Below, one piece after another: positions 6,549-62,221 of a DNA stretch of 64,000 bases. A model generated the notes under the pieces. It saw only the letters and a program-made list of their open reading frames with translations. It was not told the DNA's origin and made no database searches. A program made the translations under genes and the position numbers. Source of the DNA: Bacteroidetes bacterium GWC2_46_850 (GTDB taxonomy: Bacteria > Bacteroidota > Bacteroidia > Bacteroidales > Dysgonomonadaceae); assembly GCA_001768325.1 (NCBI GenBank), contig MENQ01000011.1:62001-126000 (forward strand). Reading direction: 5' to 3'. Numbering within the stretch: the stretch's first letter is position 1; every line of letters starts with the position of its first letter.

Positions 6549-9317
6549 TTATCGGTCAAATTCATACCCCCATGTTTTACCCTTTTGCAGAGTTGGAACG
6601 CCGCGTGTCATCCACACCGGTGCAGGATCTCCCTTGAGGTAGTGGTCGAAGAACTGCTGCAGACGGATGGAGAGGTCTTTGCTGTTGCGGCGCTGCACCA
6701 AGTTGTGTGCCTCATCGTTGTATTGTAACAGCCAGGTTGGTTTTCCCAGCCGTCGCAGGGTCATAAAGAGTTCGATGCCCTGATACCAGGGAACCGCTCC
6801 GTCCTTGTCGTTGTGCATGATCAGCAGCGGTGTTTCCACCCTGTTTGCAAAGAAAAGCGGAGAGTTTTCAATGTAGAGTTGCAAAGAATCGTTCATGGTG
6901 GATCCGATGCGTGACTGGGTCTGCTCATATTGAAACTGGCGGCTTCTTCCGGACTCCCACCTGATTCCTCCGTATGCACTGGTCATGTTAGATACCGGTG
7001 CACCGGCACCTGCTGCCTTAAACATCTTTGTTTGCGTGACCAGGTAAGCCACCTGATAACCTCCCCAGCTTTGCCCCTGTATCGCCATGTTTTCTTTATC
7101 CACCCAGCTATTTTCGGCAAGCGACTCGGCACCCGCGACAATCGCGTTGTAGGCATCCCTGCCCGGTTGTCCTACCGTATAGTGAATGTCGGGTGTAAAA
7201 ACCAAGTAACCGCGGCTGACAAAAAACGGAATGTTGATAGTCGAACGACTGGGTGCCGGTGTGAACCAGCGATAAAGGTCATCGGAATGCTTCTCGTAAA
7301 AATAGATCATCACCGGATACTTTTTTGCCGGATCAAAATCCTCCGGCTTGTAGAGAATACCCTGCAAGGGTATGCCAGTAAAAGATGTCCAGGAATAAAG
7401 CGCTGCGGTTCCCCAGTTGTAACTGCGCATTTGCGGGTTAATGTCTGTGAGTTTCTGTGCAGTTTTCCAGAAATCACGCGTAACATACAGATCGGGAGAT
7501 GTGTTGAAGTTGCTTTTTTGATACACGAAAAGATCAGCATCTTTCGCTTTCTCCAGTCCGGTGAAGCTGAATTTTTCAATTGTTCTTTTCCTGAGCGGAT
7601 TACGGCCTTTCTGTGAGAGGGTGTAGTACCCTCTTTCCTTGCTTACCTTGTTGAATGCCGAAAGAAGAAGCAGATCTCCCTCTTCAATAAATCGCTTTTC
7701 GGGATCGGTGTTTACATACCGGAACATGATGGAGTCGGTTCGTCCTGCATGCTGGGTTATATTTTCCGGTTTTTTTGTTCCGTTAGGATCAATTTTCCAG
7801 ATATCAAATGCATCGTTGATCAGCACATATGCATCATGCTCACCCCAGGCAGCGATACCATATGATCCAACCGGAGAGGGGGTATCGTGCAACTCATCCC
7901 AGAAGTTTACCGGCAGGGTTTCGGTCAGATTACGCAACGTACGCTCCCTGTTGTCATATGCAAACCAATGCTGCAGGCCCGCATCCCACCAAATGGTATA
8001 ATTACCCTGTGGTGACAGGGAGGGTCTCCCGTGCAGCGGCTTTGCCACTTCATTGAGACTGCCTGTCTGCAAGTCTTTTATCCACACATCCTGTTTTGAG
8101 GAGATGTCCCACTGACTTTCCAGTTGATAGGGCTTGTCGGTCCACAGTAGTGCATATCGTCCGTTGCCTTCATCGCCCACCGATGCGTTGGGCATCTCCT
8201 CGGTGGCCAAAGGCAGGAACCGGTTCCTGCGCCCTGGATAGACAATGCCTGTGTAGGTGCGGTTTTCCTCTCTTTTCAATTCTATTTGTTGCTGTGGCGG
8301 GGTCAGCGACTCCTGCCAGTGCCAGATATCGAGTCTGGCCATTTCAAAATCGACGATGGTGGTATCCTTTGGTGCCTTTGCGGGTGCGGCTCCCACAAGG
8401 ATCCGTTGGCTGTCTTTGCTGAAGGAGGGCGCGGCATGTTCGTTAAAAATCCAGTTCTCCGGCAATCCCGATGCGTTTCTGTCGACGAGAATCACGGCCG
8501 AGTCGGCGCCGGCAAAATAATAACGCAGGTCGTACACCTTTTGCAATACCTTTGAGGTATCGGCTGTAGCCAGGTAAACCAGCTGATTTCCGGGTTCATC
8601 GAACGCGAGCGACTTGTATGCTATTTTTTGGTGGGAGATAATCTTTTGTGCGTTGTCTCTCAGATCAACAAATACTACACGGGACAAATCGGTTGAATCT
8701 TTTTTATCAGGTTGTATGGCCATTGCAAAACTGTTGCCAAATTTGTTGAAAAGATGTTCTTTGACATTTCTGAAGCTGTCCTCTCTCTGGGTCAGCAGGT
8801 TTCGTAACAGCACGATCTCTTTTTGTTGGTTGTTCTTTTTCTCTGTCGTATCTTTGGGCAGGGTGCGTGTATATGCCACATGAGAACCCGGTTCCTGTGC
8901 TGCTTTATACGATTTCGCCCCGGGAATCTTTTCTATCGCAAACGTGTAATTATCTACAATGAGCAAAGAGTCTTCGGGCATCTCATCGGCTTTCTTCTTG
9001 TCGATAAGTGCTTGTCTGCGCAGAGCATAAGGTGCTTTGATGAGGCCCACAGTCCACCTTCCGTTGGGAAAGAGCTTGTAGTTTTTCACCCGCTCCACGG
9101 TGATCGAGCGCTCATTGCGGGTATCCCTTATGTACAGGGTTGTATCGCCCTCTTGTGGAGAAATAAGTACTCCCACAAATCTGCCATCCTCACTGACGGT
9201 GGTATTCGACAGGCTTTTCCAGTTATCGTATACCGTATGGTCGAGTGATTTCTTCTGGGGAAGGAGAATGAATGAGGTTAAGAGAAAAGTAAGCGATAAA
9301 AAGAGAGACTTGTGCAT
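6549..9317 (-). CDS. Secreted S9 (prolyl oligopeptidase-family) serine peptidase
   Basis: A 922-residue exported peptidase. The N-terminus has a signal sequence (MHKSLFLSLTFLLTSFILL), then a long beta-propeller-like region of about 600 residues and a C-terminal alpha/beta-hydrolase domain. Catalytic residues can be placed: the nucleophile in GQSWGGY (Ser about 750), the acid in HNDKDGAVPW (Asp about 839) and His in NDEAHNL (about 871). I start it at the ATG at 9317 because the signal peptide begins there; 15 upstream in-frame residues fall in the divergent intergenic region. It may act as a dipeptidyl- or oligopeptidase in the periplasm or on the surface. Proximity to an ECF/FecR/SusCD set suggests peptide scavenging, which is inference. 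Exact specificity within S9 cannot be told. Confidence 0.9.
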   Translation of the reverse strand: MHKSLFLSLTFLLTSFILLPQKKSLDHTVYDNWKSLSNTTVSEDGRFVGVLISPQEGDTTLYIRDTRNERSITVERVKNYKLFPNGRWTVGLIKAPYALRRQALIDKKKADEMPEDSLLIVDNYTFAIEKIPGAKSYKAAQEPGSHVAYTRTLPKDTTEKKNNQQKEIVLLRNLLTQREDSFRNVKEHLFNKFGNSFAMAIQPDKKDSTDLSRVVFVDLRDNAQKIISHQKIAYKSLAFDEPGNQLVYLATADTSKVLQKVYDLRYYFAGADSAVILVDRNASGLPENWIFNEHAAPSFSKDSQRILVGAAPAKAPKDTTIVDFEMARLDIWHWQESLTPPQQQIELKREENRTYTGIVYPGRRNRFLPLATEEMPNASVGDEGNGRYALLWTDKPYQLESQWDISSKQDVWIKDLQTGSLNEVAKPLHGRPSLSPQGNYTIWWDAGLQHWFAYDNRERTLRNLTETLPVNFWDELHDTPSPVGSYGIAAWGEHDAYVLINDAFDIWKIDPNGTKKPENITQHAGRTDSIMFRYVNTDPEKRFIEEGDLLLLSAFNKVSKERGYYTLSQKGRNPLRKRTIEKFSFTGLEKAKDADLFVYQKSNFNTSPDLYVTRDFWKTAQKLTDINPQMRSYNWGTAALYSWTSFTGIPLQGILYKPEDFDPAKKYPVMIYFYEKHSDDLYRWFTPAPSRSTINIPFFVSRGYLVFTPDIHYTVGQPGRDAYNAIVAGAESLAENSWVDKENMAIQGQSWGGYQVAYLVTQTKMFKAAGAGAPVSNMTSAYGGIRWESGRSRQFQYEQTQSRIGSTMNDSLQLYIENSPLFFANRVETPLLIMHNDKDGAVPWYQGIELFMTLRRLGKPTWLLQYNDEAHNLVQRRNSKDLSIRLQQFFDHYLKGDPAPVWMTRGVPTLQKGKTWGYEFDR

Positions 9318-25048: not shown

Positions 25049-26239
<1,191 letters not shown>

Positions 26240-26292
26240 GACACAAGAGCAGATAATTAAACGCTGTACTAAACAAGTTTCGGGATAAAAGA

Positions 26293-26334
26293 GCTAATCG
26301 CTGACAGCTGGATCCTGAAAGCTAAAAACTGACA
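26293..26334 (+). repeat. 7-nt-period CTGA/CTAA array before trpE
   Basis: Six consecutive 7-nt units with no insertions: GCTAATC, GCTGACA, GCTGGAT, CCTGAAA, GCTAAAA, ACTGACA. After the last unit come ATT and the trpE ATG. The period of 7 rules out a coding array. The same unit occurs at four other sites in the window. Confidence 0.8.
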
Positions 26335-26337
26335 ATT

Positions 26338-27744
26338 ATGCAATACAAATTTCAAACGAACAGCAAGAAGATCATGGGCGACCTGCACACACCCGTGAGC
26401 GTTTACCTGAAAGTAAGGGACACCTTCCCCCAGTCGGCACTGCTGGAGAGCTCCGACTTTCATGCCAATGAAAACAGTATCTCCTATCTGGCGCTGAAAC
26501 CCATTGCCCGGGTGGAGGTGAACCGGGGTGTGTGTCATTTTCTGTTTCCCGACGACAAGGCGGAAAAACAGGAATTGTCTGAAAGCTTCACCATCTCCGA
26601 TGCGTTAAACCATTTCATAGGTCGGTTTGAGGTTGTCGGCAACGAGATGGAGCAGTGCGGATTATTCGGATACTCCACTTTCAACTGTGTAAAGTATACC
26701 GAGAACATTGCCATCCGCGAAAGCAAGGAGGAAAGAAACGATGCGCCCGACTTGCTGTACATCCTCTATAAATACCTGCTGGTGTTCAATCACTTCACCG
26801 ATGAGATCACCCTGATTGAGCTGCAGGGTGAGGGTGAAATGAACAACCTGATGAAGGTGGAGTCGCTGATCAACCAACGCAACTTTGCCACTTATAACTT
26901 TTTTACCGAAGGTGAGGAATACAGTACCATCACCGACGAACAGTTCAAGGAGCATGTGCGCGCCGGGGTGCAGCACTGCCTTCGGGGCGACGTGTTTCAG
27001 ATTGTGCTCTCGCGAAGGTTCGTACAACGTTTCACAGGCGACGACTTCAAGGTGTACCGTGCGCTGCGTTCCATCAATCCCTCTCCCTATCTTTTTTATT
27101 TCGATTTCGGCGGATATCGTATTTTTGGCTCATCGCCCGAGACGCACTGCAAGATCAACGGATCACAGATCAGTATCGACCCCATAGCGGGGACAACCAA
27201 ACGGAGCGGCAACCATCAGGAAGATATGAAGGCGGTGGAGTTTCTGCTGAACGATCCCAAGGAAAACGCGGAACATGTGATGCTGGTGGACCTGGCGCGG
27301 AACGATCTGAGTCGTCATGCCCACGATGTGGCGGTCGATTTCTACAAGGAGCCGCAGTTCTATTCTCACGTGATCCACCTGGTCTCGCGCGTGAGTGGCA
27401 CGCTGAATGAAGGCACCGACCGCATTCGTGCCTTCTTCGATACCTTCCCTGCCGGCACCCTCTCTGGTGCACCCAAGGTGCGGGCCATGCAGCTGATCTC
27501 GGAAATAGAATCGCACAACCGGGGAGCTTACGGTGGTTGCATCGGTTTTGTCGGACTGAACGGCAACATCAACCAGGCCATCACCATCCGCACGTTTGTC
27601 AGCCGCAACAACGAGTTGTGGTATCAGGCCGGAGCAGGCGTCGTTTCACAGAGCGACGATGCTTATGAACTGCGCGAAGTGAACAGCAAGCTGGGAGCAT
27701 TAAAGAAAGCCATCGACAAGGCTGCCACCCTCTACAATTCATAA
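26338..27744 (+). CDS. trpE: Anthranilate synthase component I
   Basis: A 468-residue chorismate-utilising enzyme making anthranilate with TrpG. The N-terminal part carries the feedback-inhibition signature LLES-x10-S (QSALLESSDF ... ISYLALKP), so the enzyme is probably inhibited by tryptophan. The C-terminal catalytic domain has GSSPETH, DPIAGTTKRSG, VDLARNDLSRH and FPAGTLSGAPKVRAM. Length is normal for a TrpE without fusion. It is preceded at 3 nt by a heptamer repeat array and followed after 10 bp by trpG. Confidence 0.97.
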   Translation: MQYKFQTNSKKIMGDLHTPVSVYLKVRDTFPQSALLESSDFHANENSISYLALKPIARVEVNRGVCHFLFPDDKAEKQELSESFTISDALNHFIGRFEVVGNEMEQCGLFGYSTFNCVKYTENIAIRESKEERNDAPDLLYILYKYLLVFNHFTDEITLIELQGEGEMNNLMKVESLINQRNFATYNFFTEGEEYSTITDEQFKEHVRAGVQHCLRGDVFQIVLSRRFVQRFTGDDFKVYRALRSINPSPYLFYFDFGGYRIFGSSPETHCKINGSQISIDPIAGTTKRSGNHQEDMKAVEFLLNDPKENAEHVMLVDLARNDLSRHAHDVAVDFYKEPQFYSHVIHLVSRVSGTLNEGTDRIRAFFDTFPAGTLSGAPKVRAMQLISEIESHNRGAYGGCIGFVGLNGNINQAITIRTFVSRNNELWYQAGAGVVSQSDDAYELREVNSKLGALKKAIDKAATLYNS

Positions 27745-27754
27745 ACAGACAAAG

Positions 27755-28333
27755 ATGAAAACGAATAAGATTCTAATTTTCGATAACTACGATTCATTTA
27801 CCTACAACCTGTTGCACGCTGTAAAGTCGTTGGGATACAATGAGGTGGATGTGATTCGGAATGACAAGATCGATCTCTCTACCGTGGCGCAATACGACAA
27901 GATCATCCTCTCCCCCGGACCCGGCTTGCCGGAAGAGGCAGGCCTGCTGATGCCGCTTATCAGACAGTATGCAGAAACGAAAAGCATGCTGGGTGTGTGC
28001 CTTGGTCATCAGGCCATGGGGGAGGTCTTCGGGGCGAAGCTGGAAAACATTCCGTTCGTCTTTCATGGGGTGCAGACGCCAGTGGATATTATTGCAGGTG
28101 ATTACCTCTTTGACGGTATCCCGAATGAGATTCTGGTCGGTCGGTATCACTCCTGGATTGTATCCGAAGAGCATTTTCCTGCCGAGCTGGAGATCACCGC
28201 AGTGGATAAGGCAGGTGACGTGATGGCGATGAAACACAGGCAGCTCGATCTGCACGGCGTGCAGTTTCACCCCGAATCGATACTCACCCCGGAAGGGATT
28301 CGCATCATGCAGAACTTTCTGCAACATGCATAA
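27755..28333 (+). CDS. trpG: Anthranilate synthase component II (glutamine amidotransferase)
   Basis: A 192-residue class I glutamine amidotransferase that supplies ammonia to TrpE. The nucleophile is in GVCLGHQAMG (Cys82), and the His-Glu pair is in VQFHPESILTPEG. The N-terminus IFDNYDSFTYNL is the standard start of this family. It is separate from trpE and trpD (no fusion), 10 bp after trpE and 23 bp before trpD. In some bacteria the subunit is shared with aminodeoxychorismate synthase; nothing here decides that. Confidence 0.97.
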   Translation: MKTNKILIFDNYDSFTYNLLHAVKSLGYNEVDVIRNDKIDLSTVAQYDKIILSPGPGLPEEAGLLMPLIRQYAETKSMLGVCLGHQAMGEVFGAKLENIPFVFHGVQTPVDIIAGDYLFDGIPNEILVGRYHSWIVSEEHFPAELEITAVDKAGDVMAMKHRQLDLHGVQFHPESILTPEGIRIMQNFLQHA

Positions 28334-28356
28334 ACAGGTAAAACAGGACAGATCTT

Positions 28357-29352
28357 ATGAAAGAAATACTCTATAAATTATTCGATTATCATTATCTCTC
28401 GCGTGAGGAAGCCAAAGAGGTACTCTTTGCCATTGTGAAGGGAGATATACCCGATACGCAGGTTGCATCGCTCATTACCTCCTTTCTGATGCGTAGTATC
28501 TCGGTGGACGAGATCCTCGGTTTCCGCGATGCACTGCTCGATATGCGGGTCGCGGTCAATCTCTCCGATTATGCTCCCCTGGATATCGTAGGTACGGGTG
28601 GCGATGGAAAAAATACATTCAATATATCCACCGCCGCCTGCTTTGTGGTGGCCGGTGCGGGATACAACGTGGTGAAGCACGGTAACTATGGCGCCACCTC
28701 CATCAGCGGGGCCAGCAACGTGATTGAGCAGCAGGGTGTGAAGTTTTGTACCGATAACGATCAGCTTCGGAGGAGTCTCGACAGTTGCCATATTGCCTAC
28801 CTGCATGCGCCGCTGTTTAGTCCCGCATTAAAGGCTGTAGCCCCGGTAAGAAAGAGTCTGGGCGTACGCAATTTCTTCAATGTGCTGGGGCCGCTGGTGA
28901 ATCCGGTACAGCCGGAGTATCAGATGCTGGGGGTCTACAACCTGTCCATGTCGCGGTTGTATAGCTACATTTATCAGGAGGAGAATAAAAAGTTCTGTAT
29001 CGTCCACAGCATGGACGGGTATGATGAGGTCTCTCTCACCAGTCAGTTTAAGGTGGTATCCAACAAAGGGGAGCAGTTATTTGTTCCTGAAGAACTGGGT
29101 TTTAAACGGATCGGACAGGAGGAACTCTATGGAGGGAACACGCCGGAGGAGGCGGCTCAGATTTTCAGGGATGTGCTGCATGCCCGGGGTACCGAAGCAC
29201 AGATGAATGTAGTACTGGCCAACGCTGCATTCGGCATCCAGACCATCGAGCAGAATAAACCCATCGAAGAATGTATCGAAATTGCCAGAGATTCCCTATA
29301 CGGTAAAAAGGCGTTGAAAGTATTGGAGAAGTTTATTAAAATCAATCGATAA
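28357..29352 (+). CDS. trpD: Anthranilate phosphoribosyltransferase
   Basis: A 331-residue enzyme transferring phosphoribose from PRPP to anthranilate. The PRPP loop is GTGGDGKNTFNIST, and KHGNYGATSISGASNVIEQ is the second conserved segment. The N-terminal helical domain starts MKEILYKLFDYHYLSREEA. Length is normal and no extra domain is fused. The gap of 153 bp to trpC is almost entirely a heptamer repeat array, in contrast to the tight spacing between trpE, trpG and trpD. Confidence 0.97.
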   Translation: MKEILYKLFDYHYLSREEAKEVLFAIVKGDIPDTQVASLITSFLMRSISVDEILGFRDALLDMRVAVNLSDYAPLDIVGTGGDGKNTFNISTAACFVVAGAGYNVVKHGNYGATSISGASNVIEQQGVKFCTDNDQLRRSLDSCHIAYLHAPLFSPALKAVAPVRKSLGVRNFFNVLGPLVNPVQPEYQMLGVYNLSMSRLYSYIYQEENKKFCIVHSMDGYDEVSLTSQFKVVSNKGEQLFVPEELGFKRIGQEELYGGNTPEEAAQIFRDVLHARGTEAQMNVVLANAAFGIQTIEQNKPIEECIEIARDSLYGKKALKVLEKFIKINR

Positions 29353-29370
29353 AAGAATAATTTACTTATC

Positions 29371-29502
29371 TCTGAAAGCTGATCGCTGAATCCTGAAAGC
29401 TATAAACCGCTGAATTTATAACATTTCACAAATGAAAGCTAAAAGCTGATCGCTGAATCCTGAACGCTAAAAACGCTGAATCTTGAAAACTAAGAACTAA
29501 CA
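29371..29502 (+). repeat. 7-nt-period CTGA/CTAA array before trpC (two blocks)
   Basis: Block 1 (29371-29405) reads TCTGAAA, GCTGATC, GCTGAAT, CCTGAAA, GCTATAA. After a short break, block 2 (29438-29502) reads GCTAAAA, GCTGATC, GCTGAAT, CCTGAAC, GCTAAAA, a 2-nt insertion, GCTGAAT, CTTGAAA, ACTAAGA, ACTAACA. Then ATT and the trpC ATG. The run GCTGATC-GCTGAAT-CCTGAA(A/C) occurs in both blocks, suggesting local duplication. Confidence 0.8.
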
Positions 29503-29505
29503 ATT

Positions 29506-30300
29506 ATGCAAGATATACTGAGTGAGATTGTGGCTCACAAAAAGAAAGAGGTAGCCATGCAAAAGGAACGGGTTCCGTTTACGGAGCTGGAGAAGCTACT
29601 GCCACAGATGGAAGTTCCTTTCTGGTCTTTGAAGAAAGCATTGCAACTTTCGCCGACGGGAGTTATAGCCGAGTTCAAACGTCGTTCACCCAGTAAGGGG
29701 TGGATTAACCAGTCGGCCCGTGCCGACGAGGTGACCCGTGCTTACGAGGCGGCCGGCGCAGCGGCATTGTCGGTGCTCACGGACGAGACTTTTTTCGGAG
29801 GCACCCTGGTCGATTTGCAAAAGGTGACGCAAGCGGTACACATTCCGGTGATGCGGAAAGAGTTTATCGTGGATGCCTATCAGCTTTTTGAAGCGAAGCT
29901 GGCCGGTGCCGGTGCGGTACTGCTTATCGCAGCCGCAATCACTACGCATGAGTGCCGGCAGCTCACTGAGTTGGCTCATCAGCTGCAGTTGGAGGTATTG
30001 CTGGAGCTACACGATGAACGGGAAACGGAGTATATCACGCCCATCAACAAACTTATCGGGGTGAACAACAGAAACCTTGGCAGCTTTGTGACCGACCTGC
30101 AGAAATCGTTCCGGATGGCTGAATTGTTGCCGCAGGATGCTATATGGGTCTCCGAGAGTGGTATCTCCGATCCAGTCATCCTGAAAGAGTTACGCCACGC
30201 TGGCTACAAAGGATTTCTGATTGGCGAGAATTTTATGAAAACTGCCGATCCGGGGGAGAGCCTCAGGAATTTTTTGCGGGAAATTGAAAGCGACCGCTAA
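29506..30300 (+). CDS. trpC: Indole-3-glycerol-phosphate synthase
   Basis: A 264-residue TIM-barrel enzyme closing the indole ring. Seen: GVIAEFKRRSPSKGWI (catalytic lysine and substrate loop), VLTDETFFGG, PVMRKEFIVDAYQ, LLELHDERE, GVNNRNLGSF and ESGISDP with the terminal phosphate loop GFLIGENFM. Not fused to TrpF, which has its own gene 77 bp downstream. The ATG at 29506 follows the heptamer array by 3 nt. Confidence 0.97.
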   Translation: MQDILSEIVAHKKKEVAMQKERVPFTELEKLLPQMEVPFWSLKKALQLSPTGVIAEFKRRSPSKGWINQSARADEVTRAYEAAGAAALSVLTDETFFGGTLVDLQKVTQAVHIPVMRKEFIVDAYQLFEAKLAGAGAVLLIAAAITTHECRQLTELAHQLQLEVLLELHDERETEYITPINKLIGVNNRNLGSFVTDLQKSFRMAELLPQDAIWVSESGISDPVILKELRHAGYKGFLIGENFMKTADPGESLRNFLREIESDR

Positions 30301-30339
30301 AAAACAACCCGCTAAACTTGCTACATTTTACAAACCAAA

Positions 30340-30374
30340 GCTGACAGCTTATTGCTGACAGCTGAAAGCTAAAA
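30340..30374 (+). repeat. 7-nt-period CTGA/CTAA array before trpF
   Basis: Five units: GCTGACA, GCTTATT, GCTGACA, GCTGAAA, GCTAAAA, followed by ATC and the trpF ATG at 30378. Same unit, orientation and 3-nt spacing to the start codon as at trpE and trpC. Confidence 0.8.
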
Positions 30375-30377
30375 ATC

Positions 30378-30989
30378 ATGATCATCAAAGTATGCGGCAT
30401 ACGCGATGCAGCCAACATAAAAGAGCTGGAATTGCTCGATATCGACTGGATGGGATTTATTTTTTACCCCGGTTCACCCCGCTACGTGGGAAGAAGCTTG
30501 GGTTATATCCCTTCAAAAGTAAAGAAAATCGGCGTATTTGTCGACCAGGATCCCCAGATCGTACGGGAGCGGGCAGCGCAAAATAAGTTGGATGCCATTC
30601 AACTTCATGGGAGTGAGCCGCCCTGGTATTGCATCAATTTACGCGAAGAGGGATATAAGGTAATCAAGTCATTCGGAATAGATGAAGATGATTTTATACC
30701 CATTGCACAACTGGATGCTTACGAAGGGAAATGCGATTATTTTCTTTTCGACCGGAAAACAACTCTTCACGGCGGCTCGGGAAGGAAGTTCGACTGGAAC
30801 AGGCTGGCCGACTATCAGGGTGATACCCCTTTCCTGTTGAGTGGCGGTATCTCGCCAGGAGACGTGGAGAAAATTAAATCATTCGTTCATCCCCGGTTTG
30901 CAGGAATCGATATCAACAGCCGTTTTGAGATCGAACCGGCGTTGAAAGATATTGAAATGATTAAGACATTTATAAAACAATTGGGTTAA
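30378..30989 (+). CDS. trpF: Phosphoribosylanthranilate isomerase
   Basis: A 203-residue TIM-barrel isomerase. The catalytic cysteine is in KVCGIRDAANI and the acid in FLFDRKTTLHGGSGRKFDW; LSGGISPGDVEKI and GIDINSRFEIEPALKD form the phosphate-binding end. Its strand 2 segment DWMGFIFYPGSPRYVG is typical. Stand-alone, as expected when TrpC is not fused. The 92-bp gap to trpA holds the same repeat unit in the opposite orientation. Confidence 0.96.
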   Translation: MIIKVCGIRDAANIKELELLDIDWMGFIFYPGSPRYVGRSLGYIPSKVKKIGVFVDQDPQIVRERAAQNKLDAIQLHGSEPPWYCINLREEGYKVIKSFGIDEDDFIPIAQLDAYEGKCDYFLFDRKTTLHGGSGRKFDWNRLADYQGDTPFLLSGGISPGDVEKIKSFVHPRFAGIDINSRFEIEPALKDIEMIKTFIKQLG

Positions 30990-30994
30990 AAAGG

Positions 30995-31022
30995 AGTCAG
31001 GATTCAGGGATCAGGAATCAGC
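30995..31022 (-). repeat. 7-nt-period array between trpF and trpA, reversed
   Basis: Four exact-period units on the minus strand: GCTGATT, CCTGATC, CCTGAAT, CCTGACT (plus-strand AGTCAGG, ATTCAGG, GATCAGG, AATCAGC). Unlike the other arrays it points against transcription and is 59 bp from the trpA ATG. Confidence 0.7.
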
Positions 31023-31081
31023 TGTTTAGGAGGGTTGATGTTATTGTATGAAATATAAAATAAGAAGTTAGAATTAAATAT

Positions 31082-31858
31082 ATGAACAGAATCGACAAAC
31101 TATTTCAGGAGAAGGGAAACAATATATTATCGGTTTATTTTACTGCGGGGTATCCCGAGCTAGACGATACAGTGAAAGTGATGCAGGCGCTGGAGAAAAA
31201 TGGGGTGGACATGCTCGAAATTGGTGTGCCATTCAGTGATCCCATGGCCGACGGTCCTGTGATTCAAGCATCGGGAACGCAGGCACTGCGTAACGGCATG
31301 CGAGTGAAAACTCTTTTTTCACAATTGGCCGATGTACGACAGTCGGTTTCCATTCCGCTTGTGCTGATGGGTTATCTCAATCCGATCATTCAATTCGGTT
31401 TTGAGAATTACTGCCGTGAAGCAGCAGAGTGTGGGGTAGACGGATTCATTATACCCGACCTACCCTTTGCCGAGTATAAGGAGTCATACAAGCCGGTTGC
31501 TGAAAAATATGGGTTACACATGATTATGCTGATTACGCCCGAAACATCGGAAGAGCGGATCAGGATAATCGATCAGCATACTTCCGGCTTCATCTATATG
31601 GTTTCATCTGCCTCGGTTACCGGAGCAAAGAACCGGTTCAGCGATGAGAATCTGGCTTATTTCCGCCGGGTGAATGCAATGCAACTGAAAAATCCACGGC
31701 TGATCGGCTTCGGAATATCCAACAAGGAGACATTCGATGCAGCCTGCCGTGAAGCATCGGGGGCCATCATCGGCAGCAAGTTTATCTCGCTGTTGGGAAG
31801 TGAGAAATCAATTGACGAGGCAGCCAAAAAGCTAATCATTGCGATCGATCCAAAGTGA
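31082..31858 (+). CDS. trpA: Tryptophan synthase alpha chain
   Basis: A 258-residue TIM-barrel enzyme splitting indole-3-glycerol phosphate; it channels indole to TrpB. The catalytic Glu is in MLEIGVPFSDPMADGP and the catalytic Asp in VDGFIIPDLPF; the N-terminus YFTAGYPELDD is typical. Last gene of the operon. A 17-bp A/T-only hairpin (31877-31893) lies 18 bp downstream but has no T-run, so it is not a good terminator. Confidence 0.97.
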   Translation: MNRIDKLFQEKGNNILSVYFTAGYPELDDTVKVMQALEKNGVDMLEIGVPFSDPMADGPVIQASGTQALRNGMRVKTLFSQLADVRQSVSIPLVLMGYLNPIIQFGFENYCREAAECGVDGFIIPDLPFAEYKESYKPVAEKYGLHMIMLITPETSEERIRIIDQHTSGFIYMVSSASVTGAKNRFSDENLAYFRRVNAMQLKNPRLIGFGISNKETFDAACREASGAIIGSKFISLLGSEKSIDEAAKKLIIAIDPK

Positions 31859-31959
31859 GAACAACTTATGTCATGATTATTATAAAGTAATAACCATAAG
31901 ATAATAATGCGAAATAGTAATATCTGGAATGAAAAATGAATAAATCGGTTTACAGATAT

Positions 31960-31967
31960 TACCTTTG
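31960..31967 (+). promoter_or_regulatory. -7 element before the EamA transporter gene
   Basis: TACCTTTG matches TAnnTTTG and lies 43 bp before the ATG at 32011. No clear -33 element stands at the right distance, so confidence is limited. Confidence 0.4.
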
Positions 31968-32010
31968 CACATCGTTTGTGGTGGAACCCTAAAAACAGAC
32001 GACCTGCTTC

Positions 32011-56397: not shown

Positions 56398-57171
56398 TTG
56401 AACAGCATAACCGTGAGTAAGAAAGTCTATTTTCTCGCCGATGCCCATCTGGGATCCATATCACATACCAACACAATTGATGCAGAGCGAAAGTTGTGCC
56501 GATGGCTTGATGCTGTGAAGCAGGATGCATCGGAAATATATCTTTTGGGTGATATCTTCGATTACTGGTTCGAATACAAACATGTGGTGCCGAAGGGGTT
56601 CACCCGTCTGTTGGGTAAGCTGGCAGAGGTGACTGATGCCGGGGTAGAAGTTCATTTTTTTATCGGGAACCACGATATATGGCTCACCGATTACCTTGCA
56701 AAAGAATGTGGAATGATTCTTCATTTCGGGCCACTGACAACCGATATACAGGGGAAAAGATTTTTTATGGCGCACGGCGATGGCCTGGGAGATGAATCAC
56801 GGTTGTTTCATCTACTGCGGAAAATATTTCACAATAAGTTTCTGCGCAAATGCTTCTCTGCCATACATCCCCGATGGACGATTCCGTTGGCGCATGCCTG
56901 GTCGAACAGCAGCCGTGAGAACGGCGGTGTACAGGAGTATCTGGGGGAGGAGCGGGAATACCTGATCCGTTTTGCAAAGGAATACCTGACTGCGGCACCC
57001 GATATCAACTATTTTGTTTTCGGACACCGCCATATTTTGCTTGATCTTTCCATCGCAGAGCAGAGTCGTGTTGTCATGCTGGGTGATTGGATCACTTTTT
57101 TCTCCTATGCAGTATTTGATGGAAAGACAATGAGGCTGGAGCAGTTTGAAGGAACTACTTCAACTTACTGA
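56398..57171 (+). CDS. lpxH: UDP-2,3-diacylglucosamine diphosphatase
   Basis: A calcineurin-like metallophosphoesterase of about 257 residues making lipid X for lipid A. Metal motifs: FLADAHLGS, LGDIFDYWFEY, GNHDIWLTDY, MAHGDGLG and FGHRH. There is no ATG at the N-terminus: TTG at 56398 or GTG at 56413 must be used; the conserved fold begins a few codons after the GTG. The 3' end overlaps the convergent SpoU methylase gene by 17 bp. Confidence 0.92.
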   Translation: MNSITVSKKVYFLADAHLGSISHTNTIDAERKLCRWLDAVKQDASEIYLLGDIFDYWFEYKHVVPKGFTRLLGKLAEVTDAGVEVHFFIGNHDIWLTDYLAKECGMILHFGPLTTDIQGKRFFMAHGDGLGDESRLFHLLRKIFHNKFLRKCFSAIHPRWTIPLAHAWSNSSRENGGVQEYLGEEREYLIRFAKEYLTAAPDINYFVFGHRHILLDLSIAEQSRVVMLGDWITFFSYAVFDGKTMRLEQFEGTTSTY

Positions 57172-57688
57172 AGAAATCCCAGATGACGATGCCTGCCGTG
57201 ACCGACACATTGAGTGAGTGCTTGGTGCCATACTGAGGGATTTCAATGCAGCCATCGGCAGCATCTACCACAGATTGTTGTACCCCATGTACCTCATGGC
57301 CGAAGATCACGGCATATTTTTTTTCTCTTTCCAATAGAACCGATTCCAGAGAGATGCTGTTTTCTGCCTGCTCAATGGCAAAAACGGTAAAGCCGGCAGA
57401 TTTCAATGCCTGTACCGCCTCCAGTGTTTCTTCGAAATAGTGCCATCTGACCGCATCTTCAGCTCCGAGAGCTGTTTTATGAATCTCCACGTTGGGTGGC
57501 GTTGCCGTGATGCCGCACAGCAGAATCTCCTCCACCCGGAAGGCATCGCTCGTCCGGAAAACCGACCCGATATTATGCTGGCTGCGGACATTGTCGAGTA
57601 CTATAATTAATGGAATTTTCCTCGCTTCACGGAACTCATTTACGCTGATGCGGTGCAGCTCCTCCAATTTCAGTTTTCGTCGTTTCAT
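57155..57688 (-). CDS. SpoU/TrmH-family RNA 2'-O-methyltransferase
   Basis: A 177-residue SPOUT methyltransferase. Motif 1 is LDNVRSQHNIGSVFRTSDAF, motif 2 VIFGHEVHGV, and motif 3 IPQYGTKHSLNVSVTAGIVIWD, which forms the knotted SAM site. Short length without an N-terminal extension resembles TrmL or small TrmH types; tRNA or rRNA target not decidable. Its ATG is preceded at 2 nt by a heptamer repeat array like those in the trp operon. Confidence 0.92.
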   Translation of the reverse strand: MKRRKLKLEELHRISVNEFREARKIPLIIVLDNVRSQHNIGSVFRTSDAFRVEEILLCGITATPPNVEIHKTALGAEDAVRWHYFEETLEAVQALKSAGFTVFAIEQAENSISLESVLLEREKKYAVIFGHEVHGVQQSVVDAADGCIEIPQYGTKHSLNVSVTAGIVIWDFFSKLK

Positions 57689-57690
57689 AA

Positions 57691-57718
57691 TTTTAGCGTT
57701 CAGCTGTCAGCAATCAGC
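57691..57718 (-). repeat. 7-nt-period CTGA/CTAA array before the SpoU methylase gene
   Basis: On the minus strand: GCTGATT, GCTGACA, GCTGAAC, GCTAAAA, then TT and the ATG at 57688. Four exact-period units in the coding orientation of the gene. It shows that the element is not restricted to tryptophan genes. Confidence 0.75.
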
Positions 57719-61396: not shown

Positions 61397-62221
61397 TCAG
61401 AATTCAACTTTTGGTGATAATATATTTCTTTCGAGCACATGCAGGGCTACGTGTCTGCCTACTTCGATTCCTTTCAGCGAAAGTTGGAGCTTCGTCGTGT
61501 TGAAGGCCAGCTCCGGGTTGTTATTGTCTCCACTCAAATGACAGAGCCAAATATTGCGAAGATCAGAAGTGAAATTGTTTGCCAGGAACTCAGCTGTCTG
61601 ACGGTTGCTCAGATGGCCTGTTCCGGAGGTAATTCTCCGTTTCAGATGCCATGGATAACGGCCGTTTTGCAGCATCTCCTCGTCGTAGTTGCTCTCAATC
61701 ACCAGGTGATTTGCCTTGCAGATATAAAAGGCCACTTCATCTGTGATGGCGCCCACATCGGTTGCCAGTGTCATCCTTTGTCCGTCGAATTCGAAGAAAT
61801 AGCCGGCATTGTCGTTGCTGTCATGGGGTACATCAAATGCTGTAATCTTAAAATCCTCGATCTGAAAAGGTTTTCCTTTTTCGATATATTTTGTTGAACC
61901 GTTGAGGTTGTTGTGGATCATGGGACAGTTGGAGATGCCACGATGTACCTCACGGGTGGCATAGACGGGAATGTGCAGTTTTTCCCCGAGATATCCGGCC
62001 GATTTTATGTGGTCGTAATGATCGTGTGTGATGAGGATAGCCATGATAGACGAAAGTTCGATTCCATGTTCAGCAAGTCGTTTCCTGATCACACGCGGGC
62101 CAAGGCCGGCGTCAATAAGAATACCGTAATGCGCATTGCCCAGGTAGTAGCAGTTGCCGCAACTGCCGCTGCTTAGGCTGAAAAAAGAGATCCGGTCTGC
62201 CTGGAATAGTTTGTACTGCAT
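61397..62221 (-). CDS. MBL-fold metallohydrolase (YycJ/WalJ-like)
   Basis: A 274-residue metallo-beta-lactamase-fold protein. The metal site is ITHDHYDHIKS; further ligands in HLVIESNYDEEML, GTGHLSNRQTAEF and WLCHLSGDNN. The N-terminus FFSLSSGSCGNCYYLG is typical of the YycJ/WalJ group, putative exonucleases. Own role here unknown. 38 bp from the next gene upstream. Confidence 0.9.
   Translation of the reverse strand: MQYKLFQADRISFFSLSSGSCGNCYYLGNAHYGILIDAGLGPRVIRKRLAEHGIELSSIMAILITHDHYDHIKSAGYLGEKLHIPVYATREVHRGISNCPMIHNNLNGSTKYIEKGKPFQIEDFKITAFDVPHDSNDNAGYFFEFDGQRMTLATDVGAITDEVAFYICKANHLVIESNYDEEMLQNGRYPWHLKRRITSGTGHLSNRQTAEFLANNFTSDLRNIWLCHLSGDNNNPELAFNTTKLQLSLKGIEVGRHVALHVLERNILSPKVEF

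Follow-up and report, generated by a model that had tools for sequence, protein, structure and literature searches.

Heptamer arrays before trp genes of a Dysgonomonadaceae genome as probable solo arms of a mobile PF05635 element family

Direct repeats of the heptamer TAACTGA sit before start codons in Beggiatoaceae, cyanobacteria and Bacteroidetes (MacGregor 2015, PMC4679880). A second described system is the intervening sequence (IVS) of 23S rRNA, in which a small S23p/23S_rRNA_IVP open reading frame (ORF) is enclosed by terminal inverted repeats that pair into a stem, and which has been proposed to be mobile (PMC4990558, PMC11270868). Here we analyze a 64,000-nt stretch of Bacteroidetes bacterium GWC2_46_850 (positions 62,001 to 126,000 of contig MENQ01000011.1, assembly GCA_001768325.1; the whole stretch is called the window), in which tandem heptamers with a CTRA core (R, A or G) precede trpE, trpC and trpF. 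We consider that each of these trp arrays, together with a leader of about 35 nt, is probably a solo arm of a mobile element family that carries a PF05635 gene. With somewhat less confidence, we lean towards a broader proposal: that a single mobile family, in which inverted heptad or octad arrays enclose an S23/four-helix-bundle gene, inserts at operon stop-start junctions in many phyla, usually spares both genes, probably by folding out of the mRNA, and moves without a transposase of its own. Many of the heptamer arrays that are so far unexplained in Bacteroidota and cyanobacteria would then be its arms, paired or solo.

A gene within an array cluster of the window's genome (G000) belongs to PF05635 (23S_rRNA_IVP, S23, four-helix bundle; solved relatives 2gsc and 2rld). 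PF05635 loci were collected with three query sequences, two of them from array-bearing loci, and their flanks were scored for inverted repeats. A score of at least 16 was reached at 37 of 54 loci against 0 of 53 distant pairs, a count that includes three loci picked for their arrays (L051, L053 and L061). With these excluded, 34 of 51 loci reached the threshold against 3 of 112 control ORFs, which were drawn from 22 of the 51 loci in the genome-contig set only (Fisher p 6e-19). L128 and L134 (contig edge, partial match) were left out of the inverted-repeat counts, and the same loci appear under two labels in different sets at L072/L111, L073/L112 and L055/L113. At the top-scoring control ORF, L121, the flanks form a palindrome without heptad character, and this ORF was discarded as a candidate. 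Within the genus of the window's genome, 21 of 29 PF05635 loci reached the threshold (L052 was omitted for its short flank), and 6 of 30 hold CTRA arrays of at least four units, the units varying between species. Bacteroidota, Chloroflexi, Patescibacteria, Acidobacteria and Edwardsbacteria are all represented among the loci at threshold. The arms are periodic, with an identity of 0.54 at lag 7 and 0.52 at lag 14 against 0.31 when shuffled, and some have a period of 8.

These elements are placed with respect to the genes on either side. The left arm ended within 10 nt of the upstream stop in 26 of the 34 elements (36 of 1020 random placements of equal span), the right arm within 13 nt of the downstream start in 21 of 34 (121 of 1020), and both ends lay at stop and start in 19 of 34 (8 of 1020), where the random placements fell anywhere in the loci, genes included, and not in gaps alone. 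When four full elements were folded, 24-34 of the first 45 nt paired with the last 70 nt. We picture a full element as one PF05635 gene between two inverted arms of 7- or 8-nt units, located between two neighboring genes, each arm ending a few nt from a stop or start codon. By analogy with the rRNA IVS, which lies in a stem, the paired arms may form an RNA stem (or cruciform DNA) that would hold stop and start close together, and such folding would make insertion nearly neutral for both neighboring genes. At the level of whole genomes, CTRA arrays occurred in 71 of 116 PF05635-positive and 5 of 32 negative genomes, a comparison that is uncorrected for phylogeny, in which 12 of the 32 negatives were derived by subtraction and for which some genomes also score high with the reversed control pattern; we count it as weak support.

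Two groups of loci are described here for their own sake. In one genome (G164; L164-L170) a PF05635 element fills a stop-start gap (L168), and in longer gaps elsewhere in that genome several arrays of the same unit resemble self-inverted hairpins without an ORF. A flavobacterial thioesterase-thiolase junction (L204, L206-L212) is occupied by a four-helix-bundle element in eight genomes from three genera; the arm units vary between species, which suggests concerted change of both arms. This junction was set aside as an empty-site test: one genome lacked the element (L205), eight had it, three loci were unreadable and the sequences were too diverged.

Cyanobacterial plasmids provided sites in both states. 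Twelve of 30 plasmid matches were examined, and all 12 loci have inverted arms (score 17-38 versus 8-12 for distant pairs) built of short units such as GGAGTCA, AGTAGGG and TTAGCTT; several of the elements lie within conjugation, CRISPR-Cas or ribonucleotide reductase operons. Six sites occur in both an occupied and an empty form. For the junction on Trichormus variabilis plasmid C, the empty form consists of a stop, 13 nt and a start; when the junction is occupied, the element separates the stop from these 13 nt. Comparison of the occupied loci L184 and L185 with the empty loci L196, L197 and L203 gave flanks that are 98-99% identical and a 13-nt gap, and three further matches in this comparison share the same 773-bp span. 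There are five more occupied/empty sites; at one of them the stop and start of the empty form overlap as TAATG, and the occupied form retains both codons. The existence of both alleles at six plasmid sites therefore establishes that the heptad-armed PF05635 element is mobile. Solo arms can arise by decay: among forms judged by eye (L198-L200, L202), a Nostoc C052 locus (L198) retains only the left arm and a gene remnant at an occupied/empty site, a Brasilonema locus (L199) has an arm-arm form without the gene, and on the Nostoc N6 plasmid pNPM1 (L200, about 860-1210) a gene-less insert with the same heptamer arms interrupts a four-helix-bundle gene, as a nested insertion.

Two annotation matters arise at these loci. 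PF05635-type genes occur inside CRISPR-Cas operons (L188, L189 and L193; at cas10-cmr3 and cas6-cas4), which may mislead the annotation of cas-associated genes. In L195 (1855-1940), the start annotated for the ORF that follows the element falls within the right arm, and because its first residues are a translation of the array, the true start is probably a later ATG.

Arrays of the kind seen in the trp operon are abundant in the window's genome. The pattern CTGA(N3)CTGA(N3)CTGA matched the 3.75-Mb G000 at 136 forward and 131 reverse positions, and its reversed form matched twice. The preliminary description of this DNA had reported arrays of period 7 before trpE, trpC and trpF, and these are real and well beyond chance, with 267 genome matches against 2 for the reversed pattern. 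At least one match was present in 24 of 39 genus genomes (G000 included), with counts from none to 385. To describe the arrays, we used 464 kb of G000, comprising the window and 20 stretches, most of which were chosen for holding arrays. This sample contains 49 arrays of at least four units, none inside genes as called by crude in-house scripts, which also supplied the gene calls for the placement of arrays and elements. The triplet between cores varies (G at position 1 in 7 of 219 units and at position 2 in 3), and its third position is G or C in 203. The final core is CTAA in 29 of 49 arrays, compared with 13 of 223 other unit positions, and ATG occurs 3 times within arrays against 24.6 in shuffles. 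Most arrays have a leader 5' of them with the consensus aaACcgctg...TtccAC.ac.AAAG. Folding of the 49 arrays was in no way unusual (mean z 0.15), and structured RNA in solo arrays was rejected on this value.

At one G000 locus (L045, G000:C7:330001-350000, 7994-8233), a 79-nt unit of leader plus array is repeated three times in tandem between divergent genes, the copies being 96-98% identical, which shows that tandem duplication of whole leader-array modules occurs as well. In some Bacteroidota (G063, G094, G174) matches to the reversed control pattern are themselves numerous, which hints at further heptamer families.

The position of arrays in their gaps is strongly asymmetric. The placement set comprised the 35 outermost arrays in 31 gaps, one of the 49 arrays lying in no gap. 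Of these 35, 21 had their 3' end no more than 12 nt from a coding sequence and none had its 5' end that close; in 31 of 35 the 3' gap was the smaller of the two. When each array was slid within its gap, with a 40-nt leader, the mean over 2000 trials was 11.2 and the maximum 18, compared with the 21 observed. Start-facing outermost arrays numbered 23, of which 10 ended 3-6 nt ahead of the start codon and 11 within 12 nt. The proposed link to start codons thus withstood this check of distances across the genome sample and is not a coincidence. Stop-facing arrays, antisense to their neighbor, numbered 12, and 10 of these ended within 10 nt of the stop. The rule is therefore that the 3' end of an array faces the edge of a coding sequence, either a start (sense) or a stop (antisense), and not a start codon only. 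An assignment of the arrays to the translation start region holds as far as proximity to starts is concerned, and is too narrow in view of the arrays that adjoin opposite-strand stops. The arrays may nonetheless affect how the gene behind them is translated.

The features of the window are listed in Table 1. Pfam supports the names trpE, trpC, trpG, trpD, trpF and trpA, and the ORF at 25049 encodes a PALP enzyme, presumably TrpB; the trpE leader begins 19 nt past the end of this trpB-like ORF (26239). No array stands directly ahead of the start of trpG, trpD or trpA in the window. With the unit written NCTRANN, the last unit ends 3 nt ahead of the ATG of trpE, trpC and trpF, as first described, which corresponds to 5 nt from the CTRA core. 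An array of 14 units had been reported before trpC. Heptamers are indeed present there, as two arrays 42 nt apart with a conserved leader between them, the second degenerate toward its end, and not as a single array. Nor is orientation fixed, as had been supposed, because an antisense array follows the trpF stop. The array before the ATG of a SpoU-type methylase, for its part, means that these arrays are not linked to trp. Since arrays contain stop codons, they could bias start calling to positions just behind them. The trpC start is independent of these stops, because homologues align from residue 1 at 28 of 30 genus trpC loci, many of them array-less (the remaining two are cut or masked).

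Table 1. Heptamer arrays and leaders in the 64,000-nt window (coordinates are window positions)
Feature	Position	Strand	Remarks
Leader of trpE array (AAACGCTG...AAAAGAG)	26259..26293	+	Leader score reached by 0.19% of 20000 random window positions
Sense heptamer array before trpE	26294..26332	+	Ends 5 nt ahead of ATG 26338, counted from CTRA core
First sense array in trpD-trpC gap, 4 units	29372..29396	+	Without recognizable leader
Leader of second trpC array (AAACCGCTGAATTTATAACATTTCACAAATGAAAG)	29404..29438	+	Leader score reached by 0 of 20000 random window positions
Second sense array before trpC, 3' end degenerate	29439..29500	+	Ends 5 nt ahead of ATG 29506 (from core)
Leader of trpF array (CAACCCGCTAAACTTGCTACATTTTACAAACCAAAG)	30305..30340	+	Leader score reached by 0 of 20000 random window positions
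Sense array before trpF	30341..30372	+	Ends 5 nt ahead of ATG 30378 (from core); orthologous arrays in close congeners
Antisense array after trpF	30997..31021	-	7 nt past trpF stop (ORF end 30989)
Leader of antisense array after trpF	about 31022-31060	-	Leader score reached by 0.025% of random positions
Array sense to SpoU-type methylase ORF (57155-57688, minus)	57693..57717	-	4 nt ahead of methylase ATG

A CTRA array (at least three units, within 1.5 kb) was present at 10 of 30 genus trpC loci, including that of the window, and absent from 20. Close relatives have CTGA arrays in the same trp gaps, and other congeners have different short tandem units or nothing; at this site, presence and absence of arrays were seen only between diverged species. 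The variable units of the trpF array are the same in G000 and G006, and G031 has two units fewer; the arrays are thus passed on by descent and change by unit steps.

The connection between the trp arrays and the PF05635 elements is provided by other genomes of the genus. In G031 (L053), a PF05635 gene is flanked by outward-pointing leader-array modules that have the window's units and leader; the left module starts just past the upstream stop. The arm unit, leader and orientation of L053 and L051 agree with those of the window arrays, by eye and by leader score. Because the trp modules match the PF05635 modules of the genus in leader, units, orientation and placement, we read them as solo arms. 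They would have originated from PF05635 elements, either through loss of the rest of the element or as copies able to move in the absence of the gene. An arm on its own may be tolerated because its units contain stop codons and almost no ATG, and because it ends A-rich just ahead of the start.

A number of observations weigh against this interpretation, and against the element model on which it draws. L053 is a cluster with further arrays that point at the gene and is not a clean element. In G000 there are only 2 PF05635 genes for many arrays; the three arrays around one of them all run in the same direction, and its flanks give a higher direct match (29) than inverted match (20). Of nine array-rich genomes (at least 100 matches: G000, G006, G017, G020, G025, G026, G031, G034 and G037), two have no PF05635 gene (G017, 99% complete, and G034, 87%). 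No full element was found in the trpD-trpC or trpC-trpF gaps, the two gaps searched, at 30 genus loci. Among PF05635 loci generally, 17 of 51 fall below the inverted-repeat threshold, and of the 34 elements above it only 19 abut a stop on one side and a start on the other. On the plasmids, comparison of L187 with L224 shows that the element has entered the upstream gene about 30 nt before its original 3' end, so that this gene terminates at a new stop, and no target-site duplication is consistent across sites (GTAA at one, ATG at another). The trpC-trpF gap has an identity of 0.87-0.94 of aligned columns in close congeners, against 0.67-0.80 at fourfold sites, which could mean function; we did not rely on this as proof of function because free gap placement inflates gap identity. 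Finally, two candidate drivers were rejected. RAYT (Y1 transposase, PF01797) is present in 6 of 39 genus genomes and 2 of the 9 array-rich ones, and reverse transcriptase (PF00078) in 18 of 39 and 3 of 9; as neither tracks the number of arrays, neither explains them.

One alternative is translational control, in which the ribosome (S1-like) or an RNA-binding protein would bind the arrays as single-stranded mRNA sites adjacent to the start codon, as proposed for the TAACTGA repeats of Beggiatoaceae. The 10 of 23 start-facing arrays that end 3-6 nt ahead of the ATG fit this explanation, as do the similar placement of TAACTGA (MacGregor 2015, PMC4679880) and the identity of the trpC-trpF gap, a figure flattered by free gap placement. 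We nevertheless think it unlikely. Under such a mechanism, 10 of 12 stop-facing antisense arrays would not be expected to end within 10 nt of a stop; moreover, in other congeners these genes have different units or none, and 20 of 30 genus trpC loci have no CTRA array.

The arrays might instead be simple-sequence repeats that expand by slippage, with no element involved, their distance from starts being due to selection for A-rich unstructured start regions together with short gaps. Changes in unit number are certainly seen, as in the trpF array of G031, in the left arms of L184 and L185, which differ by 14 nt, and ahead of another orthologous gene, where G000 has 17 units and G031 has 24; the units are also lineage-specific. 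Slippage does not lead one to expect the conserved leader 5' of most arrays, their strict 3'/5' asymmetry toward coding sequences, or the coupling of heptamer arms to PF05635 genes with clean occupied and empty alleles, and we consider it improbable. The third explanation, a trp-specific attenuator or an array of TRAP-like sites, was suggested by the regular spacing within a trp operon and is scarcely credible, given that arrays occur genome-wide, including one ahead of a SpoU-type methylase, that 20 of 30 genus trpC loci lack a CTRA array, and that Rfam had no match in region 26000-32000 at E 0.1, although a TRAP gene was not searched for.

The reading of the trp arrays as solo arms of PF05635 elements joins two orphan facts, namely degenerate heptamer arrays of unsettled purpose and many small S23/four-helix-bundle genes of no known function. 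If a single mobile family is indeed found at gene junctions, then it will be necessary to reinterpret operon gaps, spurious low-complexity ORFs and the way start regions have evolved in these phyla; the movement of an element without a recognized transposase would also be testable on the known occupied and empty sites. Among the open-access matches listed, no title or abstract opening links PF05635 genes to heptamer arrays or to junction insertion; subscription literature was outside this scope, and novelty is to that extent unproven.

Like the TAACTGA repeats, the arrays described here are CTGA-containing heptamers with a mostly intergenic location and a patchy distribution, and in the best-studied TAACTGA genome the repeats are mostly in sense orientation and end a few nt from starts (MacGregor 2015, PMC4679880). 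The words S23, intervening and four-helix bundle protein are absent from that paper. Unlike TAACTGA, the unit here is variable (CTGA, two non-G bases, then G or C), with the triplet TAA in 2 of 219 units, and the arrays also adjoin stops in antisense orientation, have a leader and are linked with PF05635 elements.

The accessory protein Avd (bAvd) of diversity-generating retroelements belongs to a related four-helix-bundle family, and the G000 protein has a weak match to PF22296, below the cut-off. Unlike Avd, the plasmid elements have no reverse transcriptase annotated within 1.5 kb in the 12 regions, and in the genus the number of reverse transcriptases does not track that of arrays. Miniature inverted-repeat transposable elements (MITEs) and the RAYT-associated repetitive extragenic palindromic (REP) elements may be likened to the arrays as short repeats dispersed between genes, with inverted arms and a mobilizer encoded elsewhere; the arrays differ from both in their tandem heptad arms and junction placement, and RAYT is present in only 2 of 9 array-rich genomes. 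As in the rRNA IVS, the full elements carry an S23-type ORF between terminal inverted repeats. In contrast to the IVS, the 12 annotated plasmid elements lie between protein genes and the window arrays in trp gaps (other loci were not screened for rRNA). These trp gaps are too short for an S23-type ORF and hold none, and the trp arrays are single direct arms. The arms of the family described here further differ from those of the IVS in being arrays of 7-8-nt units that also occur alone, and its elements are observed as occupied and empty alleles of the same site.

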